IMG/VR virus record: IMGVR_UViG_3300021364_000078
Coordinates: 1-35,563 of that record
Direction: 5' to 3' (one strand)
Source of the DNA: a virus
Length of the DNA: 35,563 nt
The notes under the pieces were generated by a model that saw only the letters and a program-made list of their open reading frames with translations, was not told where the DNA came from and did no database searches. Below, one piece after another: positions 5,201-27,639 of this stretch (position 1 is its first letter; the number at the start of each line of letters is the position of its first letter). The translations under genes were made by a program, and so were the position numbers.

Positions 5201-8200
5201 CGAAGGAACTGAATATACTGTTCCTGGCCCAGCAAGCAATGAACTTATATACACACGAGATCAGTTGGTAGCCAACAGAGATTTCTTAAAAGCAGAAACC
5301 ACTGCATACATTAACAACAACTACTTTGTATACGACCAAGCCAAGTGCGAAAGAGACACTGGTTTAATTATTGATGCTGCTTATTATGATGCTGCATTAG
5401 GAACGAATTACAATGCAGTAACAGCAGGTCTTGCTTATCAGAGAGCAAACAGTGCATATGTTCAAAGCGATCAACAAACAGAAACTGTTGCTGCAATCAA
5501 TTTTGCAAAAGGCGAAGCTAGCACAGCAACAGCAGGCGATGCTACTGCACAAAGTCGTGTTGAAGCAGCATTTGATGAAGTAGTTGATATTATTGTTAAC
5601 GGAACAACCAGCACAGATGATGCTGCTGATACACTAGTATGGAACACAGTAAACTTACAAACTGCATTTCAGGTTCAAGCAAAAAATCAACTGCAAAATA
5701 ACAGAGAATTTTTAGCAGCAGAAGCAGTAGCATTTATTGAAAATAACTATGTAAACTTTACTTACGACCAGGCCAAGTGTGAAAGAGATATTGGCCTAAT
5801 GTTGGATGCAGTAGCACTTGATGTTGCACTTGGAACAAACTATAACAGTGTTACAGCAGGTCTTGCTTATCAGAGAGCAAGTAGCAGTGTAGTTCAAGAC
5901 GGTCAGCTATTACAGACAAAAGCAGCAATTGAATTTTTAAGAGATGCAACAGTTCTTTTAGGATTTACTCAAGATGCAGAAACAAGAGTATTAGCAGGTT
6001 TTAACGAAATAATTGATATACTTGAAAATGGAGTTGTTAGCACAGATACAGCAGCAGATGCATTGGTATTTCCAACTCCAACAGGAGCAAGTGCAGACAA
6101 AGTTGCAGCAAAAGATCAATTAATTGCAAATAAAGAATTTATAAAAGATGAAATTATAGCATGGATTGCTGCAAACTTTCCAAGTCTAACATATGACTCA
6201 ACCAAATGCGAAAGAGATGTTGGTTATATTGTTGATGCATTGTGTCATGATATTTTATACGGAGGAAACTTTGCAACTCGAACAGTGGCAAACAGCTACT
6301 TTGTAGATGGAGTCAGTCAACTAGGCGATCCTGCAGAAGAAGCTGCAACGGCAGATGCTTATGGAAGATTAGCAGATATTGTAGGCGATATTGTAATTGA
6401 AGCTGCTGTAGTTAAAACACCAGCAAACGCATTAAATCAAGACACAACAGGCACTCCAGCAAGCTCTACAGAAGCAGATGAAGTATCGGGCTTAGTCCAA
6501 GTTATAAGACAAGTTATTGCAGATGGCAATTTAACAAGTCTTCCAACAGAACAACTTCCTAGTGTGCTTTGGGCAACAGTAGATTATCAGCAAGGTTACA
6601 ATACTATTAAAGGCAACAAAGTATTGCTTCAAACTGATACAACTGACTTTATATCAGATACCTTCCAAAGTTTTACATTTAACACTGATAAATGTAATAG
6701 AGACACAAAATACATTGTTGATGCACTAACGTATGATATCTTTTATGGTGGTAATAGTGCAAGTGTTGAAGCAGCAAGAAGCTACTTTGTTGGTGCCGTT
6801 AGTCAAGTTGCTGGACAGCAAACCGAAACAGCAAATGCCTTAGCATATATTTCTACAATAATTAGAGATGTGTTACTAGATGTAGCGGTTGCAAATCCAG
6901 AACAAACTGATGAAACACAAGATACAACTGCAAGCACTGCTACTAATGATGAAGTTACAAAAGCACAATCATTACTACAGACTTTCCAGGATGTAATTAT
7001 CAACGGAATTGATAATCTTCCTACTGTAACTTATCCAAATGCAAATCCAATTACACCAAGTGAATTAAGCATACAGGCTGCTGTTGATAATTTAGCATCT
7101 GAAAAATCTACTATTATTACAGATACAATAGACTTTATTTCAACTACATACAATGGATTTAGTTATGACGAAGATAAATGTGCTAGAGATGTAGGATACA
7201 TTGTTGACGCTGTTGTTCACGATGCATTATACACAGGTAATTATGCTACACTGGTAGCAACTAATGCTTATTTCTTAGGAGCAGCGCAATACATTCCTCC
7301 TAGTCAGGTTTCACAAACTGTAGATGCATTTACACATTTGAAATCAGTAGCAGGTGAATGTATTAAAGGTGTTGCTGTTACTCCTACACCAGGAAATGCA
7401 GAAACACAAGTTTTAGGTGGAAATTACGGCACCACAATAGAAGAAGCAACATGCGATGATTTATTTGATCTTGTAATTGATGCTATTAATACAGGTGGCA
7501 CAGTAGGACCTCAGTATACACAAGTATTACCAGACTTTACTTGGTTAAGTGATGCAACAAAATTGGTTGCAGCAGATCTACTAAGTCAAAAAGCCATAAT
7601 ACAAAACACTGTTATTACATACATTACTGATAACTTAATTGGTTTCGAATACAATATTGACAAGTGTAAAAGAGATACAGGTTATATTATTGATTCTGCA
7701 ATATACGATATGATGTATGGCGGTAACAAGCAAACTAAACGTGCAGCAGAAGCATATTATAATGGAGCAATCCTAGGTGCTGCAAAAGTCGGAAATGCAG
7801 ATCAAACCTTAGTAACTGCCTATACATATTATCATTTGGCAAATGTAATGCAAAAGGTAGCAAACAATGTTGCTATCACAAAGAGTTATAATAACCCGGA
7901 AACGCAAGATTTAAGTATACCAGATGGATCTACCATAGGCGGTGATACATTAAAAATACTAGTTGATAGAATAGGTTTAGCTATACAACAAGAGTATACT
8001 ACAGGTTGGACACAACTAGAACACAACTATCTATTAGGTAGTAGTGAATACTTAGAAGATCGAAATACAATTCTCGAAGCCGAAGATTCAATTGTAGATA
8101 ATACTATTGCAGACTTGAATTTACAATTTGGTGGTATTGCTAACATTACAGTATTCCCAGGAGTTGTAAGTGTAACTACAGATAAATTTGCTGCACTTTA

Positions 8201-8903
8201 TAACGTGTCAACTATTTCAACATCGGGTCATGCCTTTGAATACGTAGGTGCTGGTATAACATACAATGCACTTCCGTTCTTTGGCGGAACTGCAATACCT
8301 GAAGAAGAAATTAAAGAATCAAACCAAGGTAAAGTGTTTGCCGGAGGCACAGTTGACCAAATTGGTAACTTTAGAGTTGGTAACTTCTTTGCAGTAAATG
8401 CTCTTAATGGTAGTATTACACTTAACGCTAATCAATTAAACCTAAGCGGTTTAACAAGTATTGGACCACTGATTAGAGACGGTGTGCCAGTTGGTGTTGA
8501 GATGAAAGAAATCAGCAACAACCCAGCATTGTTAGCAAGCACAGGTGCAATAGATGCAAACACTGTTCCTACACAAGCAGCAGTTTCAACATATGTTGAA
8601 AACAGATACTTAAACAAACTTACAGGTGGCACTGTAAACGGTAGCACAACGTTTGATATTGACGTAACTGTTGACGGAACTTTAATTCTAACAAATAACG
8701 ATTTAGAAGTTCAATACGGCGGAACGGGTGTAAGCGAATTCACAGAAGATGGTATTTTGTATGGTGACACTGCTAACCCTATAAAAGTTACGGCAGCAGC
8801 AGGCACATCCGATGCAACAGACAGTTTCCAAATACTCACTGTAACAAGTGATGTTGATAGCACTCCAATATGGACTGACACAATTGATGGTGGTAGCTTC
8901 TAA
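2229..8903 (+). CDS. Giant fibre-like structural protein with K-C-x-R-D repeats, 2224 aa
   Basis: This is a very large virion protein, probably a tail fibre or side appendage. Residues about 55-330 look like a right-handed beta-helix (pectin-lyase type): VYVSQDGDDANDG, then short strand repeats and SPYIQNC near 171. Residues about 335-400 hold two G-x-GYT repeats (PGAGYTSAPTVTF, GGSGYTRIPSVTF). From about 450 to 1950 there are ten copies of a mainly helical repeat keyed by K-C-x-R-D-x-G-Y-I-I-D-A; the Cys is at 457, 902, 1040, 1184, 1327, 1489, 1651 and 1813, and two copies near 601 and 739 lack it. A module near 2003 (GAGITYNALPFFGG) and a GGTGV segment near 2164 end the protein. Start is coupled to the gene before. 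It is a paralogue of the 3253-residue protein downstream but lacks its S74 chaperone. Host-binding function is inference. Confidence 0.85.
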   Translation: MKFFKRQTIHERKVGDGSIILTADGNVEITPPSGEVTIDGNVNISGDASGPKTTDVLYVSQDGDDANDGRSEGKFGAKRTIKSAVEQSVPGTTIIVAPGDYYENNPITLPDFVTITGQGELRNTRIFPKNNTQTIFYVGNGCYLYQLTFRGLRYPGWCAEIRPGTLCTTSPYIQNCTNMNGPWLNDGTEFIPFETVQIEGIEPSARPLMVEDYPDLPFDKQINDTGGGGGMYVDGDAYDPASLVFSFVADAFTQIAQGGIGFWIDNFGYTQIVSCFTVFCSTGFKTTNGGYLSISNSVSDFGLEGCVADGFYPIAYTTAKPTQDYFSSVASVTVDNPGAGYTSAPTVTFEAPEGAGGITATGTADIDNTTGRVSGVTILNGGSGYTRIPSVTFSGGGPTVDAQGIVNLSSNTVIQIDSLRDKPATGSIIKFQEDDTYYFITGSEIVQPPFVYDEDVCRRDTRRIIDAVTGDVVLGTTYQSQAAATSYLRATASKVLLDQLAPTVYALEAARDYMKAEITNEAMKDEIDQRFNIITSTLNAGDSSVIPEAGSDLVLNDLPDIDPGIKQAKDNILDNRDFIIEEVTAYINDQFTELSYNQLQYEEDMQNLIKGIAMYVALGSNQHVVRLGQEIEIRARFKTLYINSFKFIQNALENLAQVQADATALERVTEGMNTFVNITDDGDSSLIVIDIPNHDGASGTSNPKDAKDQLLANKDFITAEFVAYIQNENPDFTIDAAQFELDFERFVEALAFDVLYGGDSATVQETKYYYGNFDFTALESTELQTMVDAFARMRFVLGRVVRGLFVTKTPGNAESQDFSQLTATASEADAIDALLFNTQDVIENLTLTRLPTEKTYPVFETEAQALQDAANTVLGQETIIIANAQADINATYPTLTYNIDKCKRDVGYIIDAVYIDAQLESNHNSITAGLAYHRANTAYLNVEQKPATIIALLEAKRLSVDAAARDVNFANRVDALWTDVINLIQYDQLPSEGTEYTVPGPASNELIYTRDQLVANRDFLKAETTAYINNNYFVYDQAKCERDTGLIIDAAYYDAALGTNYNAVTAGLAYQRANSAYVQSDQQTETVAAINFAKGEASTATAGDATAQSRVEAAFDEVVDIIVNGTTSTDDAADTLVWNTVNLQTAFQVQAKNQLQNNREFLAAEAVAFIENNYVNFTYDQAKCERDIGLMLDAVALDVALGTNYNSVTAGLAYQRASSSVVQDGQLLQTKAAIEFLRDATVLLGFTQDAETRVLAGFNEIIDILENGVVSTDTAADALVFPTPTGASADKVAAKDQLIANKEFIKDEIIAWIAANFPSLTYDSTKCERDVGYIVDALCHDILYGGNFATRTVANSYFVDGVSQLGDPAEEAATADAYGRLADIVGDIVIEAAVVKTPANALNQDTTGTPASSTEADEVSGLVQVIRQVIADGNLTSLPTEQLPSVLWATVDYQQGYNTIKGNKVLLQTDTTDFISDTFQSFTFNTDKCNRDTKYIVDALTYDIFYGGNSASVEAARSYFVGAVSQVAGQQTETANALAYISTIIRDVLLDVAVANPEQTDETQDTTASTATNDEVTKAQSLLQTFQDVIINGIDNLPTVTYPNANPITPSELSIQAAVDNLASEKSTIITDTIDFISTTYNGFSYDEDKCARDVGYIVDAVVHDALYTGNYATLVATNAYFLGAAQYIPPSQVSQTVDAFTHLKSVAGECIKGVAVTPTPGNAETQVLGGNYGTTIEEATCDDLFDLVIDAINTGGTVGPQYTQVLPDFTWLSDATKLVAADLLSQKAIIQNTVITYITDNLIGFEYNIDKCKRDTGYIIDSAIYDMMYGGNKQTKRAAEAYYNGAILGAAKVGNADQTLVTAYTYYHLANVMQKVANNVAITKSYNNPETQDLSIPDGSTIGGDTLKILVDRIGLAIQQEYTTGWTQLEHNYLLGSSEYLEDRNTILEAEDSIVDNTIADLNLQFGGIANITVFPGVVSVTTDKFAALYNVSTISTSGHAFEYVGAGITYNALPFFGGTAIPEEEIKESNQGKVFAGGTVDQIGNFRVGNFFAVNALNGSITLNANQLNLSGLTSIGPLIRDGVPVGVEMKEISNNPALLASTGAIDANTVPTQAAVSTYVENRYLNKLTGGTVNGSTTFDIDVTVDGTLILTNNDLEVQYGGTGVSEFTEDGILYGDTANPIKVTAAAGTSDATDSFQILTVTSDVDSTPIWTDTIDGGSF
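3576..8090 (+). repeat. Ten-unit protein repeat array (K-C-x-R-D repeats)
   Basis: This coding repeat encodes units with the pattern (F/L)-x-Y-(N/D)-x-x-K-C-x-R-D-x-x-x-I-(I/V)-D-A, a nearby YGGN or LGTN segment, and downstream (L/F)-P-T and N-(K/R)-x-F-I segments. Cys codons lie at 3597, 4932, 5346, 5778, 6207, 6693, 7179 and 7665. The last four are exactly 486 bases apart, while earlier units are 414-432 bases long. Two units without Cys are centred at 4029 and 4443. DNA identity between units is modest, so these are old duplications. Confidence 0.85.
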
Positions 8904-9011: not shown

Positions 9012-12000
9012 ATGGCAACAAAGATTAGACACAAGCGAAGTGCGGTCGCGGGTAAACAACCCCTAGTATCTCAATTAGATTCAGGCGAATTAGCAATTAA
9101 CACAGCAGATGGTAAAGTTTTCCTACTGCGTGACGATTCAACAGTTCAAGATATTACAAAACGTATTTTTGACAATGATACAGAAATTGTTGTCACCGAT
9201 CAAGGTGCAGAGAATGTAGCAGAAATAAATGTTAGAATGAACGGAGTTGATACTGCTCAATTTACAGCAGCAGGTATGAACTTGTATAATGATTTAGATA
9301 TCGAAAATGCAAAAACTTTAACATTCAAAGAACTTACCGCAGCAGGCGACGACGGTGTAGGTATTAAAGCACCGGATGTGTTAGACTCAGGTTACAATAT
9401 GACATTGCCTCCGTCACAAGGAACAGTGGGTCAGATATTAGCAACAAACGGAAGCGGTGAATTATTTTTCCAAGATGCTGATATCTTTGGAGGAAACACA
9501 GTATATGTTTCGCAAGAACAAGGTGATGATGCTAACGATGGACAGAGCGCTCCAGTTAGAACTGTTAAAAGAGCCTGTCAAATTGCCTCCGGGTTGGTTT
9601 ACAATGCAGACGGTAGTATCAACTTTAAACGTGTAAACATCAAAGTTGCGGTTGGCGACTATACAGAACAAAACCCAATTATTGTTCCAGATAACACAGT
9701 TATCAAAGGCGACGGTTTGCGTGGTTGTATTATCCGTCCTGCAAACGCCAACTTGGACATGCTACGTGTTCGTAACGCATGTTACTTTGGTGAATTTACG
9801 TTCCGTGATGGTGTAGACAACAACTTTGTTCCTACTATTACAGCAGACTATGCCGTGGCATTTGACGATCCTTTTGATCCTGCTGTAACAGACCGTGCAG
9901 ATTATACAAATCTACCAGATACAAGACCAACAATCTTTACATCACCATATATTCAGAACTGTTCGATTATTTCGTTCTTAGGTATGAACGGTGCTAAGAT
10001 TGACGGTTCAAAAGTTGAATCACCCAACGTTCCGACATACGGTATTGAGGCTGAGAATCCGGTTATTGGTGCTATACCTGAACAAGGTAAGTCAATGGTT
10101 GCTAACGCATTTACTATTCTATCATTTGGTGGAACAGCGTGGCGACTAACCAACGATGCTTATGCACAGATCGTGTCTTGTTTCGAAATTTTCCTACTCA
10201 ACGGTGTTTACTGTCAGTCAGGCGGATATTGTTCAATTACCAACTCTGCTACAAACTTTGGTTTATATGCTCTTAGAGCTAGTGGGTTTTCGCCAAAAGC
10301 ATTCCAATTTGATAGAAGTTTTGTTACAGCAACCGGTGCTGCTGACGGAAAACAAACAGTAAGCATTGTAGGTATTAATCGTGACGCTCCTGTTGAAGAA
10401 TTTGTTTTACGCTTTAGAGAATCAGAATATAAGAAAGCATATGAGTTACTTTTATCAAACAAAGATCTAATTGCTTCAGATGTTGTTACATGGATTAACG
10501 GACAAATCAGTGCAGCAACACCTAGTATCTGGGCAGGCTTTACATACAATGAAGACAAATGTAAAAGAGATGTTCAAAAAATATTAGATGCAATTAGATA
10601 TGATATTTTATTCAACAGTAATTACAGAACAATTAGTGCAGCATTACGCTATTTTAACGGTAATGGAACATATTTCTTAAACAACCAAGTCGACCAAACT
10701 GTTGCAGCTTTTGCTCAAGCAAAAACGTATACAGCTAACTATTTGTCAGATGCAACTGCGACCAGCAGAGCAAATGCGCTGTGGGATGAAGTAATTGACA
10801 TTATTCAAAATGGTGAAGGTAATGCTGATGCATACAGCTATCCTACACCAACAAGCGGCACTGATAATGCTAGTGATACTGGTTATTTAAATGCAGCTAC
10901 CCAATTAACAAACAACACTGCATTTATAAAAGACGAAGTAAACAGCTGGATTGCAGATCAGGTATCCGGAGAAATAGCACCTTTTACAAGTAGTTTTGTT
11001 TACGACACTGCAAAATGTGCAAGAGACATTGGTCTTATAATTGATGCGTTAATTTATGACTTAACCTACGGCGGTAATTTACAAACTTACGAAGCAGCAC
11101 TTGCATACTTTGTTGACGGTGTAGCACAATACGGTAGCGGCCAGTTAGAAGAAACTGTTGCTGCTTATGGTAGATTGAAAACAGTAGTTGAACAAGTTAT
11201 TGTTGAAACTGCGGTAACAACATCAAGTGGAACTGTAGAAACACAAGACACAACAGCAGATGCTGGTAGTGCAGCCGCAGCAACCACAGCCGGCGATAGA
11301 ATACAAGAAATTATTGATTACCTAAACGATTCGTCAACTCTTCCAACTAGAATTGAGCCGGATCTTACTTGGGTAAACAGTAATCCGGAATATAGTGCCT
11401 ATGCAGAATTAGACACCACAGGTCAAATTAATATAGCACAAAATGTTACACAATGGATTAATGAACAAATCCAGGCTAACATTTGGTATGGATTTACATA
11501 CGATGCATCCAAGTGTAACAGAGATACTCAACTTATTGTAGAAGCTGTTGCAAAGGACACTTGGGACACAGGTAACAGATATTCACGTAGTGCTGGTCTT
11601 GCATACTATACACGTAACTTGCAAGATAGTTCTCAGATAACAATCAGTGGGCAGGAATTACAAACTATTGCTGCTATTGATTATGCTAAAACAGAAGCAT
11701 TAACGTATATTTCAAGTTTGGCAACAGCAGTGCAAGATTTTGTCGGAGCAAGTTTTGATATTGTTACTACAATTATTAATGATCCTAATGACTTGCCAGA
11801 TCCTACTGAAGTAAGTAGTGCAGGCGATATTACAAATAATTACAAAACTACTCCTACAGAAACAACATTTAATGCTGCCACAGCAGTCAATGCAACTACT
11901 AACATTATAACAATTGTAGGACATGGATTTACAAACGGACAAAAAGTTATTTACGATCCAAATGGTAATGCAGTAATACAAGGACTTGACGACGAACAAC

Positions 12001-15000
12001 AATATTATGTCAAACTTCTTAGTGAAGATGAATTTACACTAGCGTTTGACGATAGTTTGGATTTTGATGTTAACATTATTTCTACAAGCACAGGCACACA
12101 CAAATTCCTTTCTGGTGTAATAGAATTCTTTGTTGACGAGATTTTAAGTAGTCACACAACTTACCAAACACTAGAATTAGAATCTGGATCTGAAGGATTT
12201 GAATTTGTTCCTGGTAGAGCAATTACAGGCACAACAGGATCAAATAATAACAGTGCTATTGTTACAAGTTGGACACCTAGAGATCGTTTACTTGTAGTCA
12301 GTATTGAAGAGGTTGCAGTAGGACAAAGTCTACTGCGTATCCAATTTGACGAAACAAGTGTTATTGATTCGGACCATACAAGTGGCACACCTAATACTAA
12401 TATTGGTGTTAACGAAGCTGCTTCTAAACTAGGACTAGGCACAGCAACATTCAGTGTTACAGCTACAGACGGAAGTAGTGCATTGTCTAATCTATCAAAC
12501 CTGCCAGAAGTGCAATGTTGGTTCCACAGGCCTTCTGTTGTTAACTCATCTGCACACACTTGGGAATATGCAGGTTCTGGAACAGACTATAATGCATTAC
12601 CACAAAACGGTGGTAACACTAGATCAGAATACGAACAGTTTGAAGAATTGCCAGGACGAGTTTATTCATCAGGAACAAACGAACTTGGTGACTTTAAAGT
12701 TGGTGACTTTATTACAGCGTTTAACAGAACTGGTAATATTACCTTTAGAAACAAAGTGCAGGTGGACGAACTTGATGCACTGAGATTGAGCTTGTCAGAT
12801 GTTGCTATTGAAGAAATTTCAACCAGTGTTAACTTGGGTGACGATGAAATTGGCGGACCTGCTGATAGTAGACTTCCTACACAGTTAGCAGTAAGAAGCT
12901 TTATTAGTAACAGACTAGGTGGCTTTGTTGACAAAACTGTATCTACTGCGGCCGTGCCGGGTGCTATTGTTCAGTTGAACGTCAATGGCCAGCTAAACCC
13001 TGATTTGATTCCGGCCACACGTCAGTTTACAAACACAAATACACCAGGTTACCAATCACGACTAGAACAAGTAGACGATATTCCAGCTGTTGATTTGAAA
13101 GCTGGTGATATTGCTACTGAGAACTACGAACAGGTAGAACTTGCATTGAGCGGCATCATCACCGCTAATGACGGCGATGAAATAACACAACCTGGTGTAG
13201 CAGGAGCCGTGGCGTATTCAAAAGGCAACTACAGCCTAAGCACTAACATACTTGTTGTTACACAGGGCGGTGCCTGGGATGATAACGAAGACTCAACAGG
13301 AGATCCATGGGAAGTAAGTGCAGGAAATCTTTTTGTAAATGGCGTAGATTCAGGCGTAAACATTACATCTAAAGGACCAAGCACAGAGATTGTTGACAAC
13401 TGGTTCTTACGTAGTTCAAATTCAAGTCAGTTCTTGGTATTAGATGCAACTCAAAGTTATACGTTTACCACTGATGAAACATGTAGTTTGACATTTGCAG
13501 AACGTAACAGCGATATTGCAACTGTAACAACCAGTGCTGCACACAATCTACAAGTAGGTAATACAGTTCAAATTTTGAACACAACAGACGAAACATTTAA
13601 TGAAAATGGTCTAGTTTTAAGTGTTCCTAGCTCTACGACATTTACTTACACAAACGTAGACAGTGCTGATCCTACAAAAGCAAGTGCAGCAGCAACAGGA
13701 ACAGTTAGAACTATTGTTACCTCTGCAGACGGTAATGCTCAAGGTGCTGTTACAGAATTCCGCAGTGGTATTGCTGTAAACGTAGACAACGCAAATATCG
13801 TAGGCGGTAGTGGTTACCAGCCTGTTTTAGGAACACTGGTTTACGAAAGTGTGCCATTACAAGCCAAAACAGGGTCAGGAACAGGAGCAACAGCTAACCT
13901 TACAATCACAGCAGGACAGGTAACAGATGTTGATGTAAACAGAGGTGGAACCGGGTATGCTGTGGGCGATCTATTAGAAATCAATGCCAGTGATGTGGGT
14001 GGCACAGGAAGCGGATTTGAAATAGAAGTAACAGCTATTGAAAAACGTGCATATGTGAATATTTTAGGTGGCGAACTGTTTGTTGCTAGTGCATCATCAT
14101 TAGACTTTGTGGAAGATAACACTGCTGTTGCTACTGCAAAAGAAATAAACCTAGACGATGTTATAACACATAATTTCTTAGCTGGTGATGTAAGTGGTGG
14201 CGGTAATGTTGACTATACAACTTATAGAATAACAATTCCAAACCACGGAATGAAAAATGGCGATCCGGTATTGTATGATACTATAGGAAACGTTCCAATT
14301 GGCGGATTGTTAAACGAACAGGTATACTATGTAAAGCGTATTGATAGTAATACTATTGAATTATATGAAGGCTTTGCACTACTTAATCAAGTTGAATTTA
14401 CAAGCACACCGGCTAACAACAATCATAACATCACACGTCAAACAATAAACATAACAGATAATAGTATTATTGTTGAGGATCACGGTTTAACCACAGGTGA
14501 TGCTATACGTTTTGAATCATTAACTGATGGATCAAGTGCTAACGAACTGTTCGGCACAGTTGGCGCAGGCGGACCAGTTGACACCGGCTCTAGATTCTTT
14601 GTTGGTTCTGTTACTACAAACTCATTTACAATACACGCACTGCGTTCTGACGCATTGAGTAGCATAAACGACTTGGTAACAAATGCTCAAGATATTACAA
14701 CAATAGGTGTAGGAACTGCTGAAGTTATTACTAACAATGTTCAAGTTGAAAGTGTAATTAATACATCAAGTAGATTGCTTGATAACTGGAACACACTTGC
14801 TGTTACAAACATTGACGCAGAAAATATTATTTCGGGAACTATTTCACCTTCGAGATTGGCAAGTGCAGGAACACCTAACACAGATACTTTCTTGCGTGGT
14901 GATAGTAGCTATCAAACTGTTGTTCAAAGTCTTAAAGTTGCAAATACAACAGACAACCCAATTACACTTACAGGATCGAGTTTAAGTGGCGAATTCTATG

Positions 15001-18000
15001 GTGATCCAGTTAACATTGGTATTTCCAACGTCGACCTAGATGTTCTTGGAACATTTTCAACATTAGGTGTTGCTAGATTCTTACAGTCACAATTTGATGT
15101 GGATGCAGGCGGATCAGGACAAGTATTCATCAAAGACGGTGTTGTTGACGCAGGAACGTTGGATAGTTTAGACAGTGCTTACTTCCTCAATCCAAACAAC
15201 CTAACCAGTCTTGTTCCTGTAACTAGAGGCGGAACAGGCATTGGAACTTATACTGTTGGTGCTATTGTATATGCACAATCAACATCAACACTAAATGAAT
15301 TAGAAATAGGAAGACAAAATACTTTCTTAAGATCAAACGGCACTACACCAGAGTGGGGCACAGCACTTGATCTTGCTGAAGGATTGGACGTTGGATCAGC
15401 AGCACTTACATCATCAAGCACAGGTGCTGGTAGAGTTTATAACAGCAATGTAAGTAGTTTAAAAATTGGAGGCGATGCAACCAATATTACAATTGGTAGT
15501 GCAGCAGGATCAAGAAATTTATTTACATTTATTGCTAGCTATGAAGCAACAATTTCTAGAGATGTTGCAGTAAATTTAGAAAGCATAGTTGCAAACACTG
15601 CTGAAGCAGCAGGCAATGGCGACAAAGAAATTATCTTATCAGATACAACTGGCATTTTGGCTGGAATGATTGTAACTGGTAGTGTGGCTATTCCTGCTAA
15701 TACAACTGTAAGTGGTGTCACTGACGATGCAATATATCTAAGTAATGCTACAACAGGAAGTATACTTACTAGCACTGCACTAACCTTTACTTATACTCCT
15801 TATACTTTAGGTATATCAGTTGGTGATAGAATTAATATTGCAACCAGTGGTGTAACCAATCTAGACGGAACATGGCCTGTTAGTGGTGCTACGGCAACTG
15901 CTACATCTTTTACAATTAGAACAGACGATCTGGTTACAGCAGATCCGTTAGATGTTCCTGCAGGATCAGCTACCATTAACGGTAACCTAGTTCTTCGTAA
16001 CGAAAGTATTGTAATAGGACAAGCAGAAACAGATACTGCACCTAACGATGGAATTATAAAAGGGGTAAACGCACTTGGAACAGATGTTTCAGGTGGTGAT
16101 CTTACTATACAAGCAGGGTTAGGCACAGGCGCTGCTACAGGCGGAGATGTTATTATCAAAACGGGAGACGTAGGTTCTACCGGTGATATACAAAATGATG
16201 CACAAGTAAGAATGCGTTTTAATGCAGGCGGCGATACAGAAGTTACTGGATACACAAATTTCTCAACAGATGGTGCAATAAACTTTCCTGTTGGTAATAC
16301 CGCAGCTAGAACATCCCCACCAGCAGCAGGTGATGCAAGATTCAACAGTGAGATTGTAGCATTTGAAGGCTACGATGGAACAAACTGGGCACCACTAGGT
16401 GGTGTAATTGATGTCGATCAAGACACAAAAATCATTGCAGAGACAAGTGCAGGTGCTGATAACGATGACTTAGACTTCTTTACAGCAGGTGTCCAAAGAT
16501 TGTCGATTGACCAGGATGGTGATTTTAGATTTGGTGCATCTATTAACAAAGTTATAATGGACGGCGCAACCGGCGACACTAACATTGCAGGCACATTAAC
16601 TGTAGAAGGTGACTTTGTTGTAAATGGAACAACCACAACAATCAACGCTACAACACTTACAGTTGATGATAAAAATATTGAACTAGGATCGGTTGCATCA
16701 CCAACAGATGCAACAGCTAACGGTGGTGGTATAACACTAAAAGGTGCTACAGATCACACAATAACATGGTCAAATGCTAACGCTAGTTGGGATTTCAGTG
16801 AACATGTAAATATTGTTAGCAACAAAGAATACAGAATTGCAGATACCAAAGTGTTAGATGCAACATCTCTAGGTGCTAACATTGTTGATAGTAGCCTAGT
16901 AACCAGTGCGTTAACAACTGTTGGAGCTCTAGACTCAGGTAGCATTACCAGCGGCTTTGGAAATGTTAATATCGGAACAAATACATTTACTGGTAACGGT
17001 AGTGGATTGACTACGCTAAATGCTAGCCAACTTACAACTGGCACTGTTGCAGGTGCTCGCTTAGGCGGTAATCAAACAATGGCAGGTGTTAAAACATTCA
17101 GTAACACCAGTTCTGCAACTTCAACTACAACAGGTGCTGTTAGAATAAGCGGAGGCTTAGGTGTTGCAGGAGCATTGTTTGCTGGTAGTCTAAACACAGC
17201 AGACGGTAGTGGTATAGGAAACTTGAATGCAAGTAACCTGGATAGCGGAACTGTTCCAAACGGTAGAATCACAGGCATATACAGTAACCTAACTGGAACT
17301 GGTGCTTTAAACCAAGGTAGTATTACAAGCGGCTTTGGAAATATTAATATTGGAACAAGCACATTTACAGGTAACGGTAGCGGTCTTACAAACGTAGATG
17401 CAGAAACACTGGATGGACTAGATAGCACAGCATTTTTACAACGCACTGGCGGAACAATGACTGGTAACATCACTTTCAGTGATGACCAAGAAGGTGTTGT
17501 TTGGAGTAGAAACACCGACGGTGCAAGTATTAGATTCTACAACACAGGTGATGGCGATAGTAACAGTAGACTAGAATTTAACATCAACGACAACGCCAAC
17601 GAAGACTTCCGTTTCACATATACTCAAAGTGGAACAACAACAGAACTGCTTCGTATGTTACCAGATGGTGGACAAAATGGTATCACATTCCGTGGAAACA
17701 CTGTTTGGCATGCTGGCAACGATGGACCAGGGTCAGGACTAAATGCAGACCTATTTGATAACCTAGGTAGCGGATCATTCTTACGCAGTGATGCAAATGA
17801 CAGTTTCTCAGGAACACTTAGTGGTAGCGGCGCTATCAACATCAGCGGTAATATTACAGCTAATGTATTCACCGGAGATGGTAGCGGACTAACAGGTATC
17901 AGTGCCGACAATGCTAACACATTAGATGGATTAGATAGCACACAGTTCTTACGTAGCGATGCAACTGATATCATGACAGGTTGTTTGGTATTTAGAGGAC

Positions 18001-18773
18001 AAGTTGACAACTATGACGGTAACGACAGAAGTGCCTACTGGGATTATGACAACAAAGTTGCAGCAGCTTTTGAACCAGCTGCTAACGACGGTGCTGTTGC
18101 TATACTATTCAAATCGGTAGGTAACTCACCAAGTGACTTTGCATACATTGTTTATGACGAAGATTATCCAGAAGCAGGAGTTTCTGCTGGTGAAATTGGT
18201 TGTTTACTTTTAAGTTCACAAAATGACGGAACAGGATCATCTGACCATGTGCGTGTGAAATCTCGTTTGGTTGTTGAAGCTGATATCTCAAGTAGTGATC
18301 CTACCAATGCTTTCCAAGTTAAAGCAACCAACACCACAACAGACTTGTTTAGAGTTGCACGTGGCGGCGGAGTTTTCTCATCCGGCGAAGTTACAGCTTA
18401 TTCATCAGATGCCAGATTGAAAACAAATATAAGCCCAATTACAAATGCTATTGAAAAAGTAAAACGCTTGAATGGTGTAAATTATGATTGGGTTGAAAAC
18501 ATCGAAGAGTTAGGATTTAATCCTAAAATCAAATACAATGATGCAGGTGTGTTAGCACAAGAAGTGCAAAAAGTGCTTCCACAGGCTGTTGCACCAGCAC
18601 CGTTTGATGTAAGTGTTAATCCGTCAACTGGAGAAGAAACCAGCAAGTCAGGCGAAGAATACTTAACAGTTAAGTATGAAAAGATGGTTCCGTTGCTTAT
18701 AGAAGCAATCAAAGAACAGCAAAACGAAATCGACGAACTCAAGGAGATGGTTAAGAAACTACTCGATAAATAA
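9012..18773 (+). CDS. Giant tail fibre protein with C-terminal S74 chaperone, 3253 aa
   Basis: This is probably the main long fibre. The start has a strong ribosome site (AGGAGG) and the fibre N-terminal signature ELAINTADGKVFLLRDD. Residues about 165-440 are beta-helix-like (VYVSQEQGDDANDG, SPYIQNC). Three K-C-x-R-D repeats follow, with Cys at 517, 669 and 835. Several H-G-x-x-x-G-D/Q-x-V modules lie near 970, 1509, 1744 and 1823, and a YNALPQNGG module matches the upstream fibre. The last third is a shaft of repeats such as FTGNGSGLT and TLDGLDSTAFL. From about 3130 the S74 intramolecular chaperone begins with SSDARLKTNI; family knowledge puts self-cleavage before Ser3132, releasing about 122 residues. 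GVLAQEVQKVLPQAV and a C-terminal coiled coil are the other S74 signatures. The protein should trimerise and then shed the chaperone. Confidence 0.9.
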   Translation: MATKIRHKRSAVAGKQPLVSQLDSGELAINTADGKVFLLRDDSTVQDITKRIFDNDTEIVVTDQGAENVAEINVRMNGVDTAQFTAAGMNLYNDLDIENAKTLTFKELTAAGDDGVGIKAPDVLDSGYNMTLPPSQGTVGQILATNGSGELFFQDADIFGGNTVYVSQEQGDDANDGQSAPVRTVKRACQIASGLVYNADGSINFKRVNIKVAVGDYTEQNPIIVPDNTVIKGDGLRGCIIRPANANLDMLRVRNACYFGEFTFRDGVDNNFVPTITADYAVAFDDPFDPAVTDRADYTNLPDTRPTIFTSPYIQNCSIISFLGMNGAKIDGSKVESPNVPTYGIEAENPVIGAIPEQGKSMVANAFTILSFGGTAWRLTNDAYAQIVSCFEIFLLNGVYCQSGGYCSITNSATNFGLYALRASGFSPKAFQFDRSFVTATGAADGKQTVSIVGINRDAPVEEFVLRFRESEYKKAYELLLSNKDLIASDVVTWINGQISAATPSIWAGFTYNEDKCKRDVQKILDAIRYDILFNSNYRTISAALRYFNGNGTYFLNNQVDQTVAAFAQAKTYTANYLSDATATSRANALWDEVIDIIQNGEGNADAYSYPTPTSGTDNASDTGYLNAATQLTNNTAFIKDEVNSWIADQVSGEIAPFTSSFVYDTAKCARDIGLIIDALIYDLTYGGNLQTYEAALAYFVDGVAQYGSGQLEETVAAYGRLKTVVEQVIVETAVTTSSGTVETQDTTADAGSAAAATTAGDRIQEIIDYLNDSSTLPTRIEPDLTWVNSNPEYSAYAELDTTGQINIAQNVTQWINEQIQANIWYGFTYDASKCNRDTQLIVEAVAKDTWDTGNRYSRSAGLAYYTRNLQDSSQITISGQELQTIAAIDYAKTEALTYISSLATAVQDFVGASFDIVTTIINDPNDLPDPTEVSSAGDITNNYKTTPTETTFNAATAVNATTNIITIVGHGFTNGQKVIYDPNGNAVIQGLDDEQQYYVKLLSEDEFTLAFDDSLDFDVNIISTSTGTHKFLSGVIEFFVDEILSSHTTYQTLELESGSEGFEFVPGRAITGTTGSNNNSAIVTSWTPRDRLLVVSIEEVAVGQSLLRIQFDETSVIDSDHTSGTPNTNIGVNEAASKLGLGTATFSVTATDGSSALSNLSNLPEVQCWFHRPSVVNSSAHTWEYAGSGTDYNALPQNGGNTRSEYEQFEELPGRVYSSGTNELGDFKVGDFITAFNRTGNITFRNKVQVDELDALRLSLSDVAIEEISTSVNLGDDEIGGPADSRLPTQLAVRSFISNRLGGFVDKTVSTAAVPGAIVQLNVNGQLNPDLIPATRQFTNTNTPGYQSRLEQVDDIPAVDLKAGDIATENYEQVELALSGIITANDGDEITQPGVAGAVAYSKGNYSLSTNILVVTQGGAWDDNEDSTGDPWEVSAGNLFVNGVDSGVNITSKGPSTEIVDNWFLRSSNSSQFLVLDATQSYTFTTDETCSLTFAERNSDIATVTTSAAHNLQVGNTVQILNTTDETFNENGLVLSVPSSTTFTYTNVDSADPTKASAAATGTVRTIVTSADGNAQGAVTEFRSGIAVNVDNANIVGGSGYQPVLGTLVYESVPLQAKTGSGTGATANLTITAGQVTDVDVNRGGTGYAVGDLLEINASDVGGTGSGFEIEVTAIEKRAYVNILGGELFVASASSLDFVEDNTAVATAKEINLDDVITHNFLAGDVSGGGNVDYTTYRITIPNHGMKNGDPVLYDTIGNVPIGGLLNEQVYYVKRIDSNTIELYEGFALLNQVEFTSTPANNNHNITRQTINITDNSIIVEDHGLTTGDAIRFESLTDGSSANELFGTVGAGGPVDTGSRFFVGSVTTNSFTIHALRSDALSSINDLVTNAQDITTIGVGTAEVITNNVQVESVINTSSRLLDNWNTLAVTNIDAENIISGTISPSRLASAGTPNTDTFLRGDSSYQTVVQSLKVANTTDNPITLTGSSLSGEFYGDPVNIGISNVDLDVLGTFSTLGVARFLQSQFDVDAGGSGQVFIKDGVVDAGTLDSLDSAYFLNPNNLTSLVPVTRGGTGIGTYTVGAIVYAQSTSTLNELEIGRQNTFLRSNGTTPEWGTALDLAEGLDVGSAALTSSSTGAGRVYNSNVSSLKIGGDATNITIGSAAGSRNLFTFIASYEATISRDVAVNLESIVANTAEAAGNGDKEIILSDTTGILAGMIVTGSVAIPANTTVSGVTDDAIYLSNATTGSILTSTALTFTYTPYTLGISVGDRINIATSGVTNLDGTWPVSGATATATSFTIRTDDLVTADPLDVPAGSATINGNLVLRNESIVIGQAETDTAPNDGIIKGVNALGTDVSGGDLTIQAGLGTGAATGGDVIIKTGDVGSTGDIQNDAQVRMRFNAGGDTEVTGYTNFSTDGAINFPVGNTAARTSPPAAGDARFNSEIVAFEGYDGTNWAPLGGVIDVDQDTKIIAETSAGADNDDLDFFTAGVQRLSIDQDGDFRFGASINKVIMDGATGDTNIAGTLTVEGDFVVNGTTTTINATTLTVDDKNIELGSVASPTDATANGGGITLKGATDHTITWSNANASWDFSEHVNIVSNKEYRIADTKVLDATSLGANIVDSSLVTSALTTVGALDSGSITSGFGNVNIGTNTFTGNGSGLTTLNASQLTTGTVAGARLGGNQTMAGVKTFSNTSSATSTTTGAVRISGGLGVAGALFAGSLNTADGSGIGNLNASNLDSGTVPNGRITGIYSNLTGTGALNQGSITSGFGNINIGTSTFTGNGSGLTNVDAETLDGLDSTAFLQRTGGTMTGNITFSDDQEGVVWSRNTDGASIRFYNTGDGDSNSRLEFNINDNANEDFRFTYTQSGTTTELLRMLPDGGQNGITFRGNTVWHAGNDGPGSGLNADLFDNLGSGSFLRSDANDSFSGTLSGSGAINISGNITANVFTGDGSGLTGISADNANTLDGLDSTQFLRSDATDIMTGCLVFRGQVDNYDGNDRSAYWDYDNKVAAAFEPAANDGAVAILFKSVGNSPSDFAYIVYDEDYPEAGVSAGEIGCLLLSSQNDGTGSSDHVRVKSRLVVEADISSSDPTNAFQVKATNTTTDLFRVARGGGVFSSGEVTAYSSDARLKTNISPITNAIEKVKRLNGVNYDWVENIEELGFNPKIKYNDAGVLAQEVQKVLPQAVAPAPFDVSVNPSTGEETSKSGEEYLTVKYEKMVPLLIEAIKEQQNEIDELKEMVKKLLDK
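10540..11830 (+). repeat. Three K-C-x-R-D repeats in the second fibre
   Basis: These units match the repeats of the upstream fibre (FTYNEDKCKRDVQKILDA, FVYDTAKCARDIGLIIDA, FTYDASKCNRDTQLIVEA). Cys codons lie at 10560, 11016 and 11514, so the spacing is 456 and 498 bases. Their presence in both fibres points to duplication and unequal expansion of a shared module. Confidence 0.8.
18765..18772 (+). promoter_or_regulatory. Late promoter box embedded at the fibre stop codon
   Basis: GATAAATA here is made of the last codons and stop of the fibre gene (GAT AAA TA of TAA). The expected transcript start (about 18778) falls at the left arm of the next hairpin. It would drive the 58-aa, 123-aa and glycosyltransferase genes. 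Confidence 0.45.
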
Positions 18774-19043: not shown

Positions 19044-19415
19044 ATGAAAACACTTTATGAAGTCTTGAATGTAGACTTGGCCGAAGAATATACAAAGGTA
19101 AGAAAAGAAAACACTTTACTTGCTCTTGATCTAGACGACGAACTAGAAGCACAAGTTATTGCAGAAATTCAAGCTATGGATATTCCAGAAGATGATGAAA
19201 GTTATCACTGGACACACAAATTTGGAAAATTAGCAGGAGCAGATCTTTTAACCTTAGGAAAAGTTCAACCAGAAAACATGTTGGCTATGGCTAATCTAGG
19301 AGACGAAGATTTCCAAAAAGCAGTGAAAATTGCAACAACTTCTGCACGTTCAATGAATACGCTTACAGTAGAAGCAGAAAAAGAACTTAATCAAGAGACA
19401 GCACCAACACTATAA
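19044..19415 (+). CDS. Conserved-looking hypothetical protein, 123 aa
   Basis: This 123-residue acidic protein starts MKTLYEVLNVDLAEEY after an ATAGGAG ribosome site. It is predicted to be largely helical, with many Glu and Asp, no Cys, and no membrane segment. A central SYHWTHKFGKLAGADLLTLG stretch is the most distinctive part. The stop TAA overlaps the ATG of the glycosyltransferase gene (TAATG), so the two are translationally coupled. I do not recognise the family. Its position between a fibre-tip-like gene and glycosyltransferases would suit an assembly or regulatory partner, but this is a guess. Confidence 0.7.
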   Translation: MKTLYEVLNVDLAEEYTKVRKENTLLALDLDDELEAQVIAEIQAMDIPEDDESYHWTHKFGKLAGADLLTLGKVQPENMLAMANLGDEDFQKAVKIATTSARSMNTLTVEAEKELNQETAPTL

Positions 19416-20005
19416 TGCAATTAAGTATTTGTATTCCTGCTCGAGATCAGGTTCATACAGTATTTGCTCGTAGTCTTGCGTATCTTACAAGTAAACTTAC
19501 TGCAAAGAATATAAATTATGATTTGCATATTGTGTCAAGCAGCGTTATTGCTGAATCAAGAACACGGTTAGCAAATGAAGCATTGAATGCAAATGCTACT
19601 CATTTGCTTTGGTTAGATACTGATTTACATTTTCCACCAACTATAGTAGATACCTTTTTAAAACACGACAAAGATATTGTAGCAGCAAACTATAGCACTA
19701 GATACAGTCCTTACCAATCTGTTGCATTTACTGATCCTGACAATATAGAGGAAAGATTGGATGCTACTCGTGGTTTACACAAGGTGTGGGCAGTGGGTAT
19801 GGGATGTATGATGATAAAAGCAGAAGTTTTTGACAAACTTCCTAAACCTTGGTTTGCTCATCAATATAATAATGAAACCGATAACTTCAGCGGCGAGGAT
19901 ATATATTTTTGTAATCTAGCATACAAACACAACATTGATGTTTGGATTGATGCAGATGTAAGTATGCAAATGGCACATATAGGAATAAAGGCTAATAAGT
20001 TATGA
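19415..20005 (+). CDS. GT-A type glycosyltransferase (family 2-like), 196 aa
   Basis: This is a predicted cytoplasmic glycosyltransferase using a nucleotide-sugar donor. The N-terminus MQLSICIPARDQVHTVF matches the first strand of GT-A enzymes. HLLWLDTDLHFP (residues about 63-74) gives the D-x-D metal-binding motif. GMGCMMIKAEVF (about 130-141) and FSGEDIYFCNLA with a late MAHIG His complete the usual acceptor-side motifs. It is shorter than typical bacterial family 2 enzymes but matches phage-encoded short forms. It overlaps the genes on both sides (TAATG and ATGA). The target could be a virion protein or a host glycan; the sequence does not say which. Confidence 0.8.
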   Translation: MQLSICIPARDQVHTVFARSLAYLTSKLTAKNINYDLHIVSSSVIAESRTRLANEALNANATHLLWLDTDLHFPPTIVDTFLKHDKDIVAANYSTRYSPYQSVAFTDPDNIEERLDATRGLHKVWAVGMGCMMIKAEVFDKLPKPWFAHQYNNETDNFSGEDIYFCNLAYKHNIDVWIDADVSMQMAHIGIKANKL

Positions 20006-22632
20006 GAGCTATAGACAGATTTGAAAAATATGGTAGTCCGACTTTTAATGGACAAGATTATTTAAAAAATCATATTTTGGATAAATTTCCAATTGTAAAA
20101 ACTGGAGATACAAATAATCTCGAACAAGTATGGAAAAACAATTATGATAGCGAATATGTATGGCTTGTTGATGACAGTATAAGAACCTTTGATACATTTC
20201 CTTGGTATTTTAGGCCTAGACAAGAAGAAGAAACGTGTATTCATAAATTTCCATATGTGCATAAGAATAGCAAGAAAATTATCAGTTATGATAAAGTAAA
20301 ACTGGTTCCTACACAAAAACAAAAGTATAAAGAAATAGAACACAATTATATTTGCGGATGTTACGATCCTTATTATGGAAAAGAAAAGTTTGATATTTTC
20401 TTTATAGACGGCGACAGCACTCAAAAAGAATGGGCTATGAATAATATTCCTAATGTGCAAATCGTAGAATCTTTTGAACAAGCACAGCAAAGATCGTTTA
20501 CTGATATGTTTTGGGTTGTATGGCATGATACAATAATGCGTCCAACATTTAAGTTTTCATATGTGCCAGACGATTGGAGTTTAGATTATGTTCATACTTT
20601 TGGCAATGGAGATTTAGATCAGCTTGATGGCATTATACTTTGTCCAAAAAACTATGCAATGACTGATAAAGAGTTAGAACACAGATTTTTTGCCAAAAAG
20701 AAAGAAATAAGAATTGTAGCTAGCGATCCAAGAAAGTTTGATCAATTTAAAATAAACAATTACAATGATTATCAACACGCATTCAAATACAGCACTACAG
20801 AAATGTTTTGGGGAATACCCGACTGTATTGACATTGTAAATGATGATATTTTTTCAATGTATATTTCTTATCATAATAAAGCTGATAGAAAACAAAATCA
20901 TGTGTTTAAAAATGGAACACGCTACGACGGGCTTGTGTTGTATAGCAAGCATAGCATAGTGACCGAAAAAGAAATAATTTATAAATTTATTGCATCTAGA
21001 ATTGAACACGATTTAGAAGTAAGTAAACCTAAACCATTTGATAGATTTACTATAAACACTTACGAAGATTATCTCAATGCTATAAAAGATACTACCACAG
21101 ATATGTTCTGGGGCATTCCGGATGACGTTGATGTAAAAAAAGATTTTAAATGGGACGAAGAATTAGACAAAGATGAAATAGATAGAAGAACAAATTACAT
21201 TTTCTTAAATGGTGAGCATAGAGACGGTGTAGTGCTGTTTAATAAGTTTGAAGAAGTTACAGTTAAAGAAATTGAGAATAGATTTTTTGTTAACAAAAAA
21301 GAATTAGATATTGTTGCCAGCGAACCAAAGAAGTATGATAAATTTACCATAGATACTTATGAAGATTATACTAATGCATTGTATAGCAGCAAGACAAATA
21401 TGTTTTGGGGAGTGCCTAGCGATGTAATTGTTAGAGACGATTTTGATTTTTCATTGTATTTTAGTCATTATAATAACCATGATAGAAATACTAATCATAT
21501 TTTCAATAATGGAAAATACAAAGACGGAGTTGTGCTTTTTAGTAAAAATTCTTTAGTCAGTGAAAAAGAAATAGAACATAGATTTTATATTACAAAAAAA
21601 GAATGGAATATAGTTGCTAGCGATCCTAAGCCGTATCCTGTTTTTAATGTTAATAATTACAAACAGTATTTAGAAGCATTTGATAAATCTCCTACTGATT
21701 TATTTTTTATTAAACCTGATGATATCATTGTAAATGATGATTTCAATTGGAATTTTTATATCGATCATCATAATCAATACGAAAGAAAAATAAATCATGT
21801 TTGGAAAAACGGCGAGTATTTTGACGGTATTGCATTAACTAGTAAATCTTTGAATTTAACAGATAGAGAAATTGAGCATAGATTTTATGCCATCAAAAAA
21901 GAATACGACACACAAGCCAGCAAACCTAAACCTTTTGATATTGTTTTTATAAGTTACAATGAGCCTAATGCAGATGAAAATTTTAAAAAACTTACTGAAA
22001 AATTTCCTAATGCAAAAAGAGTAAATGGTGTAAAAGGAATACACCAAGCACATATTGCTGCTGCCAAAATAGCAAAAACAGATATGTTTTGGGTTGTAGA
22101 TGCAGATGCACAAATTATTGATGACTTTGAATTTGATTATCAAATTAGTCATTACGATTTAGATGGACGAAACACAGTGTATGTATGGAGAAGTTTAAAT
22201 CCTATAAACGGATTAATTTATGGGTATGGCGGAGTTAAATTATTACCTAAGCATTTAACTTTGAATATGAATACAAACACGCCTGATATGACTACAAGTA
22301 TAAGTCGAAACTTCAAAAGTGTGCCACAAATGAGCAACATAAGTGCATTTAACACTGACGAGTTTTCTACATGGAAAAGTGCATTTAGAGAATGTGTAAA
22401 GTTAGCCAGCAAATCTATAGACAGACAAAATGACGAAGAAACTGAGTTTAGATTAAATGCATGGTGCACCAGAGGTATTGACAAACCATTCGGTGATGCG
22501 GCGATTAGCGGTGCTATTCACGGCAAAAAATACGGTGAATTTGCGGCGAATAATACTGAAGCATTGAAAAAGATAAATGATTTTGAATGGCTAGAAGAAC
22601 AGTTTAAGCAATCATATCAACAAGACGTATAA
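20002..22632 (+). CDS. Multi-unit glycosyltransferase-like repeat protein, 876 aa
   Basis: The protein is built from seven related units, each marked by a hydrophobic strand ending in M-F-W and then an acidic turn. The aligned strand starts are residues 52, 169, 268, 368, 467, 567 and 695. Only the last unit reads FWVVDADAQ, an intact D-x-D (D700, D702) as in GT-A enzymes; it follows FDIVFISYNEPN (about 645) and VNGVKGIHQAHIAAA, the usual core strands. Units 3-6 read FWGIPD-like sequences in which Pro or another residue replaces the first Asp. A repeated linker (EIEHRFYxxKKEyxxxAS) separates units. The C-terminal 170 residues are unique and include WCTRGIDKPFGDAAISGA. The start overlaps the upstream glycosyltransferase stop (ATGA). 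Likely one active transferase domain behind inactive binding units; that is inference. Confidence 0.75.
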   Translation: MRAIDRFEKYGSPTFNGQDYLKNHILDKFPIVKTGDTNNLEQVWKNNYDSEYVWLVDDSIRTFDTFPWYFRPRQEEETCIHKFPYVHKNSKKIISYDKVKLVPTQKQKYKEIEHNYICGCYDPYYGKEKFDIFFIDGDSTQKEWAMNNIPNVQIVESFEQAQQRSFTDMFWVVWHDTIMRPTFKFSYVPDDWSLDYVHTFGNGDLDQLDGIILCPKNYAMTDKELEHRFFAKKKEIRIVASDPRKFDQFKINNYNDYQHAFKYSTTEMFWGIPDCIDIVNDDIFSMYISYHNKADRKQNHVFKNGTRYDGLVLYSKHSIVTEKEIIYKFIASRIEHDLEVSKPKPFDRFTINTYEDYLNAIKDTTTDMFWGIPDDVDVKKDFKWDEELDKDEIDRRTNYIFLNGEHRDGVVLFNKFEEVTVKEIENRFFVNKKELDIVASEPKKYDKFTIDTYEDYTNALYSSKTNMFWGVPSDVIVRDDFDFSLYFSHYNNHDRNTNHIFNNGKYKDGVVLFSKNSLVSEKEIEHRFYITKKEWNIVASDPKPYPVFNVNNYKQYLEAFDKSPTDLFFIKPDDIIVNDDFNWNFYIDHHNQYERKINHVWKNGEYFDGIALTSKSLNLTDREIEHRFYAIKKEYDTQASKPKPFDIVFISYNEPNADENFKKLTEKFPNAKRVNGVKGIHQAHIAAAKIAKTDMFWVVDADAQIIDDFEFDYQISHYDLDGRNTVYVWRSLNPINGLIYGYGGVKLLPKHLTLNMNTNTPDMTTSISRNFKSVPQMSNISAFNTDEFSTWKSAFRECVKLASKSIDRQNDEETEFRLNAWCTRGIDKPFGDAAISGAIHGKKYGEFAANNTEALKKINDFEWLEEQFKQSYQQDV
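20150..22200 (+). repeat. Seven-unit tandem repeat in the glycosyltransferase-like protein
   Basis: Codons for the aligned M-F-W strand begin at 20155, 20506, 20803, 21103, 21400, 21700 and 22084. The four steps from 20506 to 21700 are 297, 300, 297 and 300 bases, a period of 99-100 residues. The first and last steps are longer (351 and 384 bases). Confidence 0.85.
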
Positions 22633-26364: not shown

Positions 26365-27126
26365 ATGGCTGATACTACTACAGAGAAACAAGAAATTTTT
26401 AATTATGTTAATACCTTCTTGGGTGGAGGTATGGTTGATGTAGAATTGGATCCTATACATTATGAAACAGCGTTGGAAAAATCACTAAGCAAATATAGAC
26501 AACGCAGTGAAAACAGTGTAGAAGAAAGTTACATTACTTTACCTTTAGAGCAAGACAAGAACGAATATATACTTCCGCAAGAAATAATCGAAGTTAGAAA
26601 AATATACAGACGTAGTATAGGAAGTAGACTTGGCGGAAGCGCCGACGGTGGTAGTTTGTTTGAGCCATTTAACCTAGCATATACAAACACATATTTGCTA
26701 GCAGGCAGTGGCATAGGCGGATTAGCCACATACGATTTCTTTGCACAGCAACAAGAACTTGTAGGACGTATGTTTGGTAGTTTTTTAGAATTTACTTGGA
26801 ACACCAGCAATAAAAAATTAACAGTATTACAAAGACCACGAGCAGATGAGGAAGTATTACTTTGGTGCTACAACTATAGACCAGACTTTGAACTGTTTAA
26901 AGATTATAAAGCATACCAGTGGATCAAAGATTATACACTTGCTAACTGCAAATATATGTTAGGCGAAGCACGTAGTAAATTCTCAACAATTGCTGGCCCA
27001 GGCGGCGGAACAACATTAAACGGTGATACGCTAAAAGCCGAAGCACAGCAAGAAATGGAAAAACTTGAAATGGATCTTGCAATGGCTGTTGCAGGTGGAA
27101 CAGGATACGGGTTCTTAATTGGATAA
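26365..27126 (+). CDS. 13: Neck protein gp13, 253 aa
   Basis: gp13 is the head-proximal neck protein that completes the filled head and contacts gp14 and gp15. The sequence matches the marine T4-like form: FNYVNTFLGGGMVDVELD near the start, YETALEKSLSKYRQRSENS, then LWCYNYRPDFELFKDYKAY and DYTLANCKYMLGEARSKFS, and a Gly-rich tail. It is shorter than T4 gp13 (309 residues). The start has GGAG eight bases upstream. Its last codons overlap the TTG start of the methyltransferase gene. The call rests on recalled family sequences plus its place opposite gp14/gp15. Confidence 0.75.
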   Translation: MADTTTEKQEIFNYVNTFLGGGMVDVELDPIHYETALEKSLSKYRQRSENSVEESYITLPLEQDKNEYILPQEIIEVRKIYRRSIGSRLGGSADGGSLFEPFNLAYTNTYLLAGSGIGGLATYDFFAQQQELVGRMFGSFLEFTWNTSNKKLTVLQRPRADEEVLLWCYNYRPDFELFKDYKAYQWIKDYTLANCKYMLGEARSKFSTIAGPGGGTTLNGDTLKAEAQQEMEKLEMDLAMAVAGGTGYGFLIG

Positions 27127-27619: not shown

Positions 27620-27639
27620 TTTTCATATATTATGTAACA

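Follow-up and report, generated by a model that had tools for sequence, protein, structure and literature searches.

A predicted phage glycosyltransferase of the GT-A type carrying a variable array of truncated, motif-less copies of its own domain at tail-fibre loci

The window analysed here, which is the whole 35,563-nucleotide stretch of IMG/VR virus record IMGVR_UViG_3300021364_000078, is a myovirus tail locus. Its sheath protein shares about 41% identity with the sheaths of the jumbo phages Phosso, Atu_ph07, and PA5oct. Two tail fibre genes are located at 2229..8903 (2224 aa, by its tail-fibre annotation) and 9012..18773 (3253 aa, a PHROGs tail fibre). The latter is the giant fibre, TF2, and its C-terminus resembles, by eye, an autochaperone of the S74 type. 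It is followed by a conserved neighbour of 123 aa (19044..19415) assigned to phrog_1409 in PHROGs, by an Anp1-like glycosyltransferase of 196 aa (19415..20005), and by the array glycosyltransferase gene (20002..22632 including the stop codon, 876 aa). The Anp1-like protein matches PF03452 above the cut-off and phrog_1574 ('unknown function'), and has a D-T-D of its own; the end of its gene overlaps the start of the array gene by four bases. All five genes are on the plus strand. In tail-type contigs with any number of units the gene order is giant fibre, phrog_1409 protein, Anp1-like glycosyltransferase, array glycosyltransferase, a nudix gene and two structural genes on the minus strand, and neck, and the Anp1-like gene lies directly upstream of the long array form wherever contigs cover that stretch. 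No sugar-nucleotide synthesis genes were recognised within the window.

The tail sheath gene (28228-31590) encodes 1120 aa against a PHROG profile of 915 positions; the extra length is probably an inserted surface domain, and a SAICAR_synt match at 256-313 looks like chance. Genes for a methyltransferase (PF13578) and a dNMP-kinase-like protein occupy 27119-28143, between the neck and sheath genes, and this place of the dNMP-kinase-like gene is conserved in many relatives.

The reading frame at 20002-22632 is open and free of stops, and frame and neighbours are identical in tens of independent contigs. We compared the 876-aa protein with itself and obtained scores of 508, 482, 346, and 245 at offsets of 100, 199, 299, and 99, whereas the top score in 20 shuffles of the protein was 52. 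Chance periodicity was therefore ruled out, and the preliminary description of this DNA was right in reporting seven tandem glycosyltransferase-like units with a period of 99-100 residues in the middle ones. An HMM of the middle units scored 102-135 bits on U2-U6, 34 bits on the core of U7, and weakly (30 bits) on U1. U1 (residues 28-130, approximately; 20083..20391) is a divergent N-terminal GT-A-like segment and the fastest-evolving part of the protein. U2 (residues 131-244; 20392..20733) is a cap unit that retains a beta1-alpha1-like start at residues 131-148. The middle units are U3 (residues 245-344; 20734..21033), U4 (345-444; 21034..21333), U5 (445-544; 21334..21633), which is one of the most conserved, and U6 (545-644; 21634..21933), which directly precedes the terminal domain. 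U7, or the B domain (645-876; 21934..22629), is the complete GT-A domain.

From U1 to U7, the residues at the aligned position of the D-x-D motif are DDS, WHD, PDC, PDD, PSD, PDD, and DAD. The one complete motif, D700-A701-D702 (22099..22107), was located from the sequence and an alignment of relatives; further D-x-D strings at residues 136, 204, 375, 389, 480, and 719 are all off the aligned position. Both aspartates were present in all 60 terminal domains examined, where they are invariant in the alignment, in none of 152 middle units, in two of 55 cap units, and in two of 17 U1 segments. The claim that only the last unit keeps the motif is thus borne out, as is the replacement of the first aspartate in U3-U6; the alteration supposed for U1 was of another kind, this unit having kept the first aspartate and lost the second. 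The same counts show that homologues with intact catalytic residues in most of their units did not turn up. In the middle units the first motif position is never Asp and in most cases Pro, Trp, Ser, Tyr, Asn, or Thr; the second aspartate is retained in 47/55 cap units and 74/152 middle units.

The Pfam model Glycos_transf_2 (PF00535) scored 15.7 bits on U7, below its gathering cut-off of 23.3, and at most 19.5 bits among the scanned relatives. No family was matched in PHROGs at E 0.001 or in NCBIfam at E 1, the PDB gave no sequence match even with a 59-sequence profile, and tblastn of P0001 and of single-domain members found nothing in 50,697 deposited phage records. An AlphaFold model of the full protein had a pLDDT of 85.6; because its pTM was only 0.57, the relative placing of the units in it is uncertain. 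In a Foldseek search of the PDB with this model, the top 50 matches were all GT-A-type glycosyltransferases (E 1e-5 to 5e-4), among them K4CP, ppGalNAc-T, ArnC, WrtF, RmlT, and SunS. The C-terminal domain, residues 645-876, is predicted from its sequence to be the sole catalytic part, acting through D700/D702. The glycosyltransferase family to which it belongs appears to be undescribed; the fold and the D-x-D chemistry are already known.

The units are derived from GT-A domains and are truncated cores of the glycosyltransferase domain. A profile of the units aligned to that of the glycosyltransferase in hhalign with a probability of 96% (E 4e-9, 84 columns, 26% identity). Each middle unit, of about 100 aa, corresponds to the beta2-alpha2-beta3 segment, the dead D-x-D, and the hairpin strands, helix, and long strand that follow; it lacks the first beta-alpha element (beta1-alpha1) as well as the acceptor half at the C-terminus. 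The AlphaFold model of the U5-U6 pair was better defined (pLDDT 96.2, pTM 0.85). Searched alone against the PDB, this pair had mostly GT-A matches, the best of which, bovine beta4GalT1, was not significant (E 0.034), so that the GT-A assignment made in the preliminary description is upheld by hhalign and by the full model and not by two units on their own. The weak matches of the pair include the capsid glycosyltransferase domain of PBCV-1 (2p6w), a viral single-domain GT-A enzyme acting on a structural protein (E 0.17, also not significant).

With the first aspartate missing in 152/152 middle units and beta1-alpha1 missing as well, these units do not qualify as functional glycosyltransferase domains. 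The sequence EIEHRFY, which had been taken for a constant linker, belongs to the fold: in the model it forms a helix inside the unit (521-526, 621-626), and a long strand comes after it (532-542, 632-642). The first Glu of EIEHRFY does not vary across a 97-row alignment of two units. The residues conserved in the units, in U5 Y456, H499, G509, L512, E523, K533, and S540, overlap little with those conserved in the glycosyltransferase domain.

We estimated dN/dS in the closer orthologue pairs. The ratios, which are approximate because dS is high in many pairs, were 0.02-0.24 for U2-U6 and 0.06-0.19 for the glycosyltransferase domain; U1 and the N-terminus evolve faster than U2-U6. Every well-defined unit is under purifying selection, and the low ratios rule out decaying pseudogene copies. 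For 200 of the 209 units the closest match lay in another protein, mostly in the unit at the corresponding position, which excludes recent expansion by slippage for most units; the few recent duplications are n4/n5 in locus L015 and n2/n3 in L125. Together, the lost motif, selection resembling that on the glycosyltransferase domain, orthology by position, and newly conserved residues indicate that the units most likely now serve a new, position-specific, non-catalytic role.

A terminal B domain was present in 162 distinct complete proteins from scans of viral contigs; the search for homologues with other unit numbers, proposed in the preliminary description, thus found forms with none to 11 full units. 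No full unit was present in 55 proteins, in seven of which the B domain is fused to a paralogous 'A' glycosyltransferase; 20 had one, nine two, 17 three, 12 four, 36 five, and 13 six to eleven. The lengths rise in steps of about 100 aa (220-234, 339-359, 440-457, 546-561, 653-674, and 739-775 aa), U1 adds about 130 aa in tail-type forms (e.g., 868-880 aa with five units), and the two longest complete chains reach 1471 and 1500 aa. A DNA pattern scan on KEIEHRF added 101 loci, with the family present in 99. No array lacking a terminal glycosyltransferase was found among the family loci, save for arrays cut by contig ends and one split array. In the latter (L334:275-4691), two overlapping ORFs in different frames encode 906 aa with nine units and 654 aa with four units plus the glycosyltransferase, due to either a frameshift or an assembly error. 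On the B-domain tree the unit count changed at least 33 times, compared to about 96 times for shuffled labels; it is inherited but labile. The carriers are uncultured, probably giant phages, and the dead copies ahead of the intact domain number up to about twelve.

Some relatives have further parts. About 220 additional residues follow the glycosyltransferase domain in L008:5001-8300 and L089:4330-7641. At L045:4986-7595 and L077:4992-7601, the A and B paralogues are joined in one chain of 869 aa with about 330 further residues; elsewhere the two genes are adjacent and separate. Single-domain B homologues also occur in bacteria (L159-L238; Streptomyces, Photorhabdus, Roseibium, and Bdellovibrionia MAGs), mostly at 28-49% identity. 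No Pfam or NCBIfam name was found for these, and by sequence they would constitute an unnamed bacterial glycosyltransferase family. The Photorhabdus homologue is located in an operon with a GT4, two GT2, and an ABC exporter.

In a second genomic context, on contigs of up to 383 kb, the array gene follows the A glycosyltransferase and other conserved genes, and radical-SAM enzymes are encoded downstream. All 16 of these contigs tested had a tail-collar gene on the same strand, 7-18 kb upstream of the array gene as worked out by hand from the contig ranges; in L250 the cluster comes after a collar gene and three genes that are fibre-like. Linkage to virion structural genes is therefore present in both contexts, through tail-fibre synteny in one and the collar gene in the other. 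The radical SAM enzymes, one with a SPASM domain, adjoin the A/B pair at L036:6899-10401 and L063:7742-8905, which suggests that peptides or sugars are modified further at the tail-fibre locus. Relatives of the Anp1-like glycosyltransferase were found in 108 phage records, mostly of cyanophages; in a Manatee Spring phage the gene lies between the major capsid and tail tubular genes, and in Synechococcus phage ACG-2014f it adjoins collar and baseplate genes. TF2 has 3169-3932 aa alongside five-unit forms and 3055 aa alongside a three-unit form. The idea of the array as a ruler for fibre length found no support, as TF2 length does not visibly track unit number, although the few complete fibres give this comparison low power.

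We give even chances to the reading that the gene encodes an enzyme from an undescribed family of GT-A glycosyltransferases with which the phage decorates its own tail fibres, and that the dead units serve as an arm or docking surface holding the fibre or a partner glycosyltransferase. The C-terminal domain (residues 645-876) would transfer a sugar onto the fibres using D700/D702; the 3253-aa fibre is the proposed substrate and the 2224-aa fibre a possible second one. The N-terminal solenoid of truncated, dead cores would form a rigid arm and docking surface that grips either the very long fibre or the Anp1-like partner enzyme during modification by the terminal domain, and the number of units would set its reach or the number of contacts. 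This reading builds on the computed homology between units and glycosyltransferase, the truncation, the loss of D-x-D, purifying selection, copy-number variation, and tail-fibre linkage; catalytic activity, the fibre as substrate, and the arm or docking role are what we infer from these. A more specific version is tentative: through about 3 to 12 duplications, dead GT-A half-domains may have become a modular arm in which each unit, specific to its position, reads or measures the giant fibre, so that the one active domain glycosylates defined sites along it. In mycobacteriophages, phage-encoded glycosyltransferases are known to modify the phage's own capsid and tail tube (PMC12363180; PMC12619734). 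Those of Che8, Corndog, and Myrna act on virion proteins, as in the model proposed here; the available portion of the source describes no array of units in them, and the comparison is one of descriptions only (PMC12363180).

A position beside the fibre genes could equally be expected of a host-receptor-modifying or serotype gene. The enzyme might then alter host surface polysaccharide for receptor masking or superinfection exclusion, with the array binding the growing glycan or the host's glycan machinery. Bacterial B-domain homologues do reside in clusters of the polysaccharide or natural-product type, and sugar clusters of jumbo cyanophages have been interpreted in this way (PMC7824862). We nevertheless consider it unlikely, as no sugar-nucleotide, flippase, or membrane genes were seen adjoining the array gene, the linkage to tail structural genes is fixed in both contexts, and the middle units lack the donor site. 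The location among tail structural genes and the regular solenoid of variable, adhesin-like length would also suit a part of the virion, namely a structural arm or adhesin-like fibre segment tipped with a present or former glycosyltransferase domain. This is quite improbable: the units are homologous to an enzyme and lead into a glycosyltransferase with an intact active-site motif, and the single-domain relatives (220-234 aa) resemble plain enzymes.

The preliminary description had taken the inactive copies for sugar or nucleotide binders in a processive or multivalent machine. The frequent retention of the second aspartate and the strongly conserved polar residues of the units would agree with a vestigial or altered binding site used in such glycan handling; however, the middle units are without the beta1-alpha1 element, the first aspartate, and the acceptor half, and the residues conserved in them (Y456, H499, E523, K533, and S540) are largely new. 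Retained binding is unlikely because the cores are truncated, and only one intact domain is present where a bifunctional or processive polymerase like K4CP would have two complete active ones; we judge this reading very improbable. Least probable of all is that the array has no specific partner and acts merely as a spacer or to aid solubility. Such a role would fit the many copy-number changes on the B-domain tree, but orthology by unit position and the low dN/dS in each unit point to something beyond length.

The terminal domain of the array glycosyltransferase has its fold and D-x-D in common with GT2-like GT-A enzymes (K4CP, ppGalNAc-T, RmlT, SunS, and WrtF), from which it is set apart by the lack of a PDB sequence match and a Pfam GT2 score under the cut-off. 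Chondroitin polymerase K4CP, the top Foldseek match, likewise has more than one GT-A domain in tandem. The two GT-A domains of K4CP are complete and active, whereas the array glycosyltransferase has one presumably active domain and five or more incomplete, dead ones. To our knowledge, multi-domain glycosyltransferases carry one or two full domains and never arrays of truncated dead cores, and in the literature searched for tandem dead glycosyltransferase units we found no account of one. Arrays of this kind, variable and made of truncated, dead copies, thus appear to be undescribed. Two proteins of uncultured Caudovirales phages in BFVD, A0A6J5LK21 (804 aa) and A0A6J5L5L5 (1076 aa), both annotated as 'uncharacterized', have predicted structures that align with a pair of consecutive units (E 3e-7 and 2e-6; TMq 0.51 and 0.54; 11-13% identity). 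Because of this match, they are probably divergent arrays, as judged from the models.

The protein shows clearly how an enzyme fold can be trimmed and multiplied to give a non-catalytic scaffold while still joined to the intact parent domain; forms with no full unit, with 1, 2, or 3, and with as many as 11 all occur in nature. It also ties an unnamed glycosyltransferase family to the tail-fibre loci of uncultured phages, some of them very large. Glycosylation of the fibres would affect host recognition and the escape from binding proteins.
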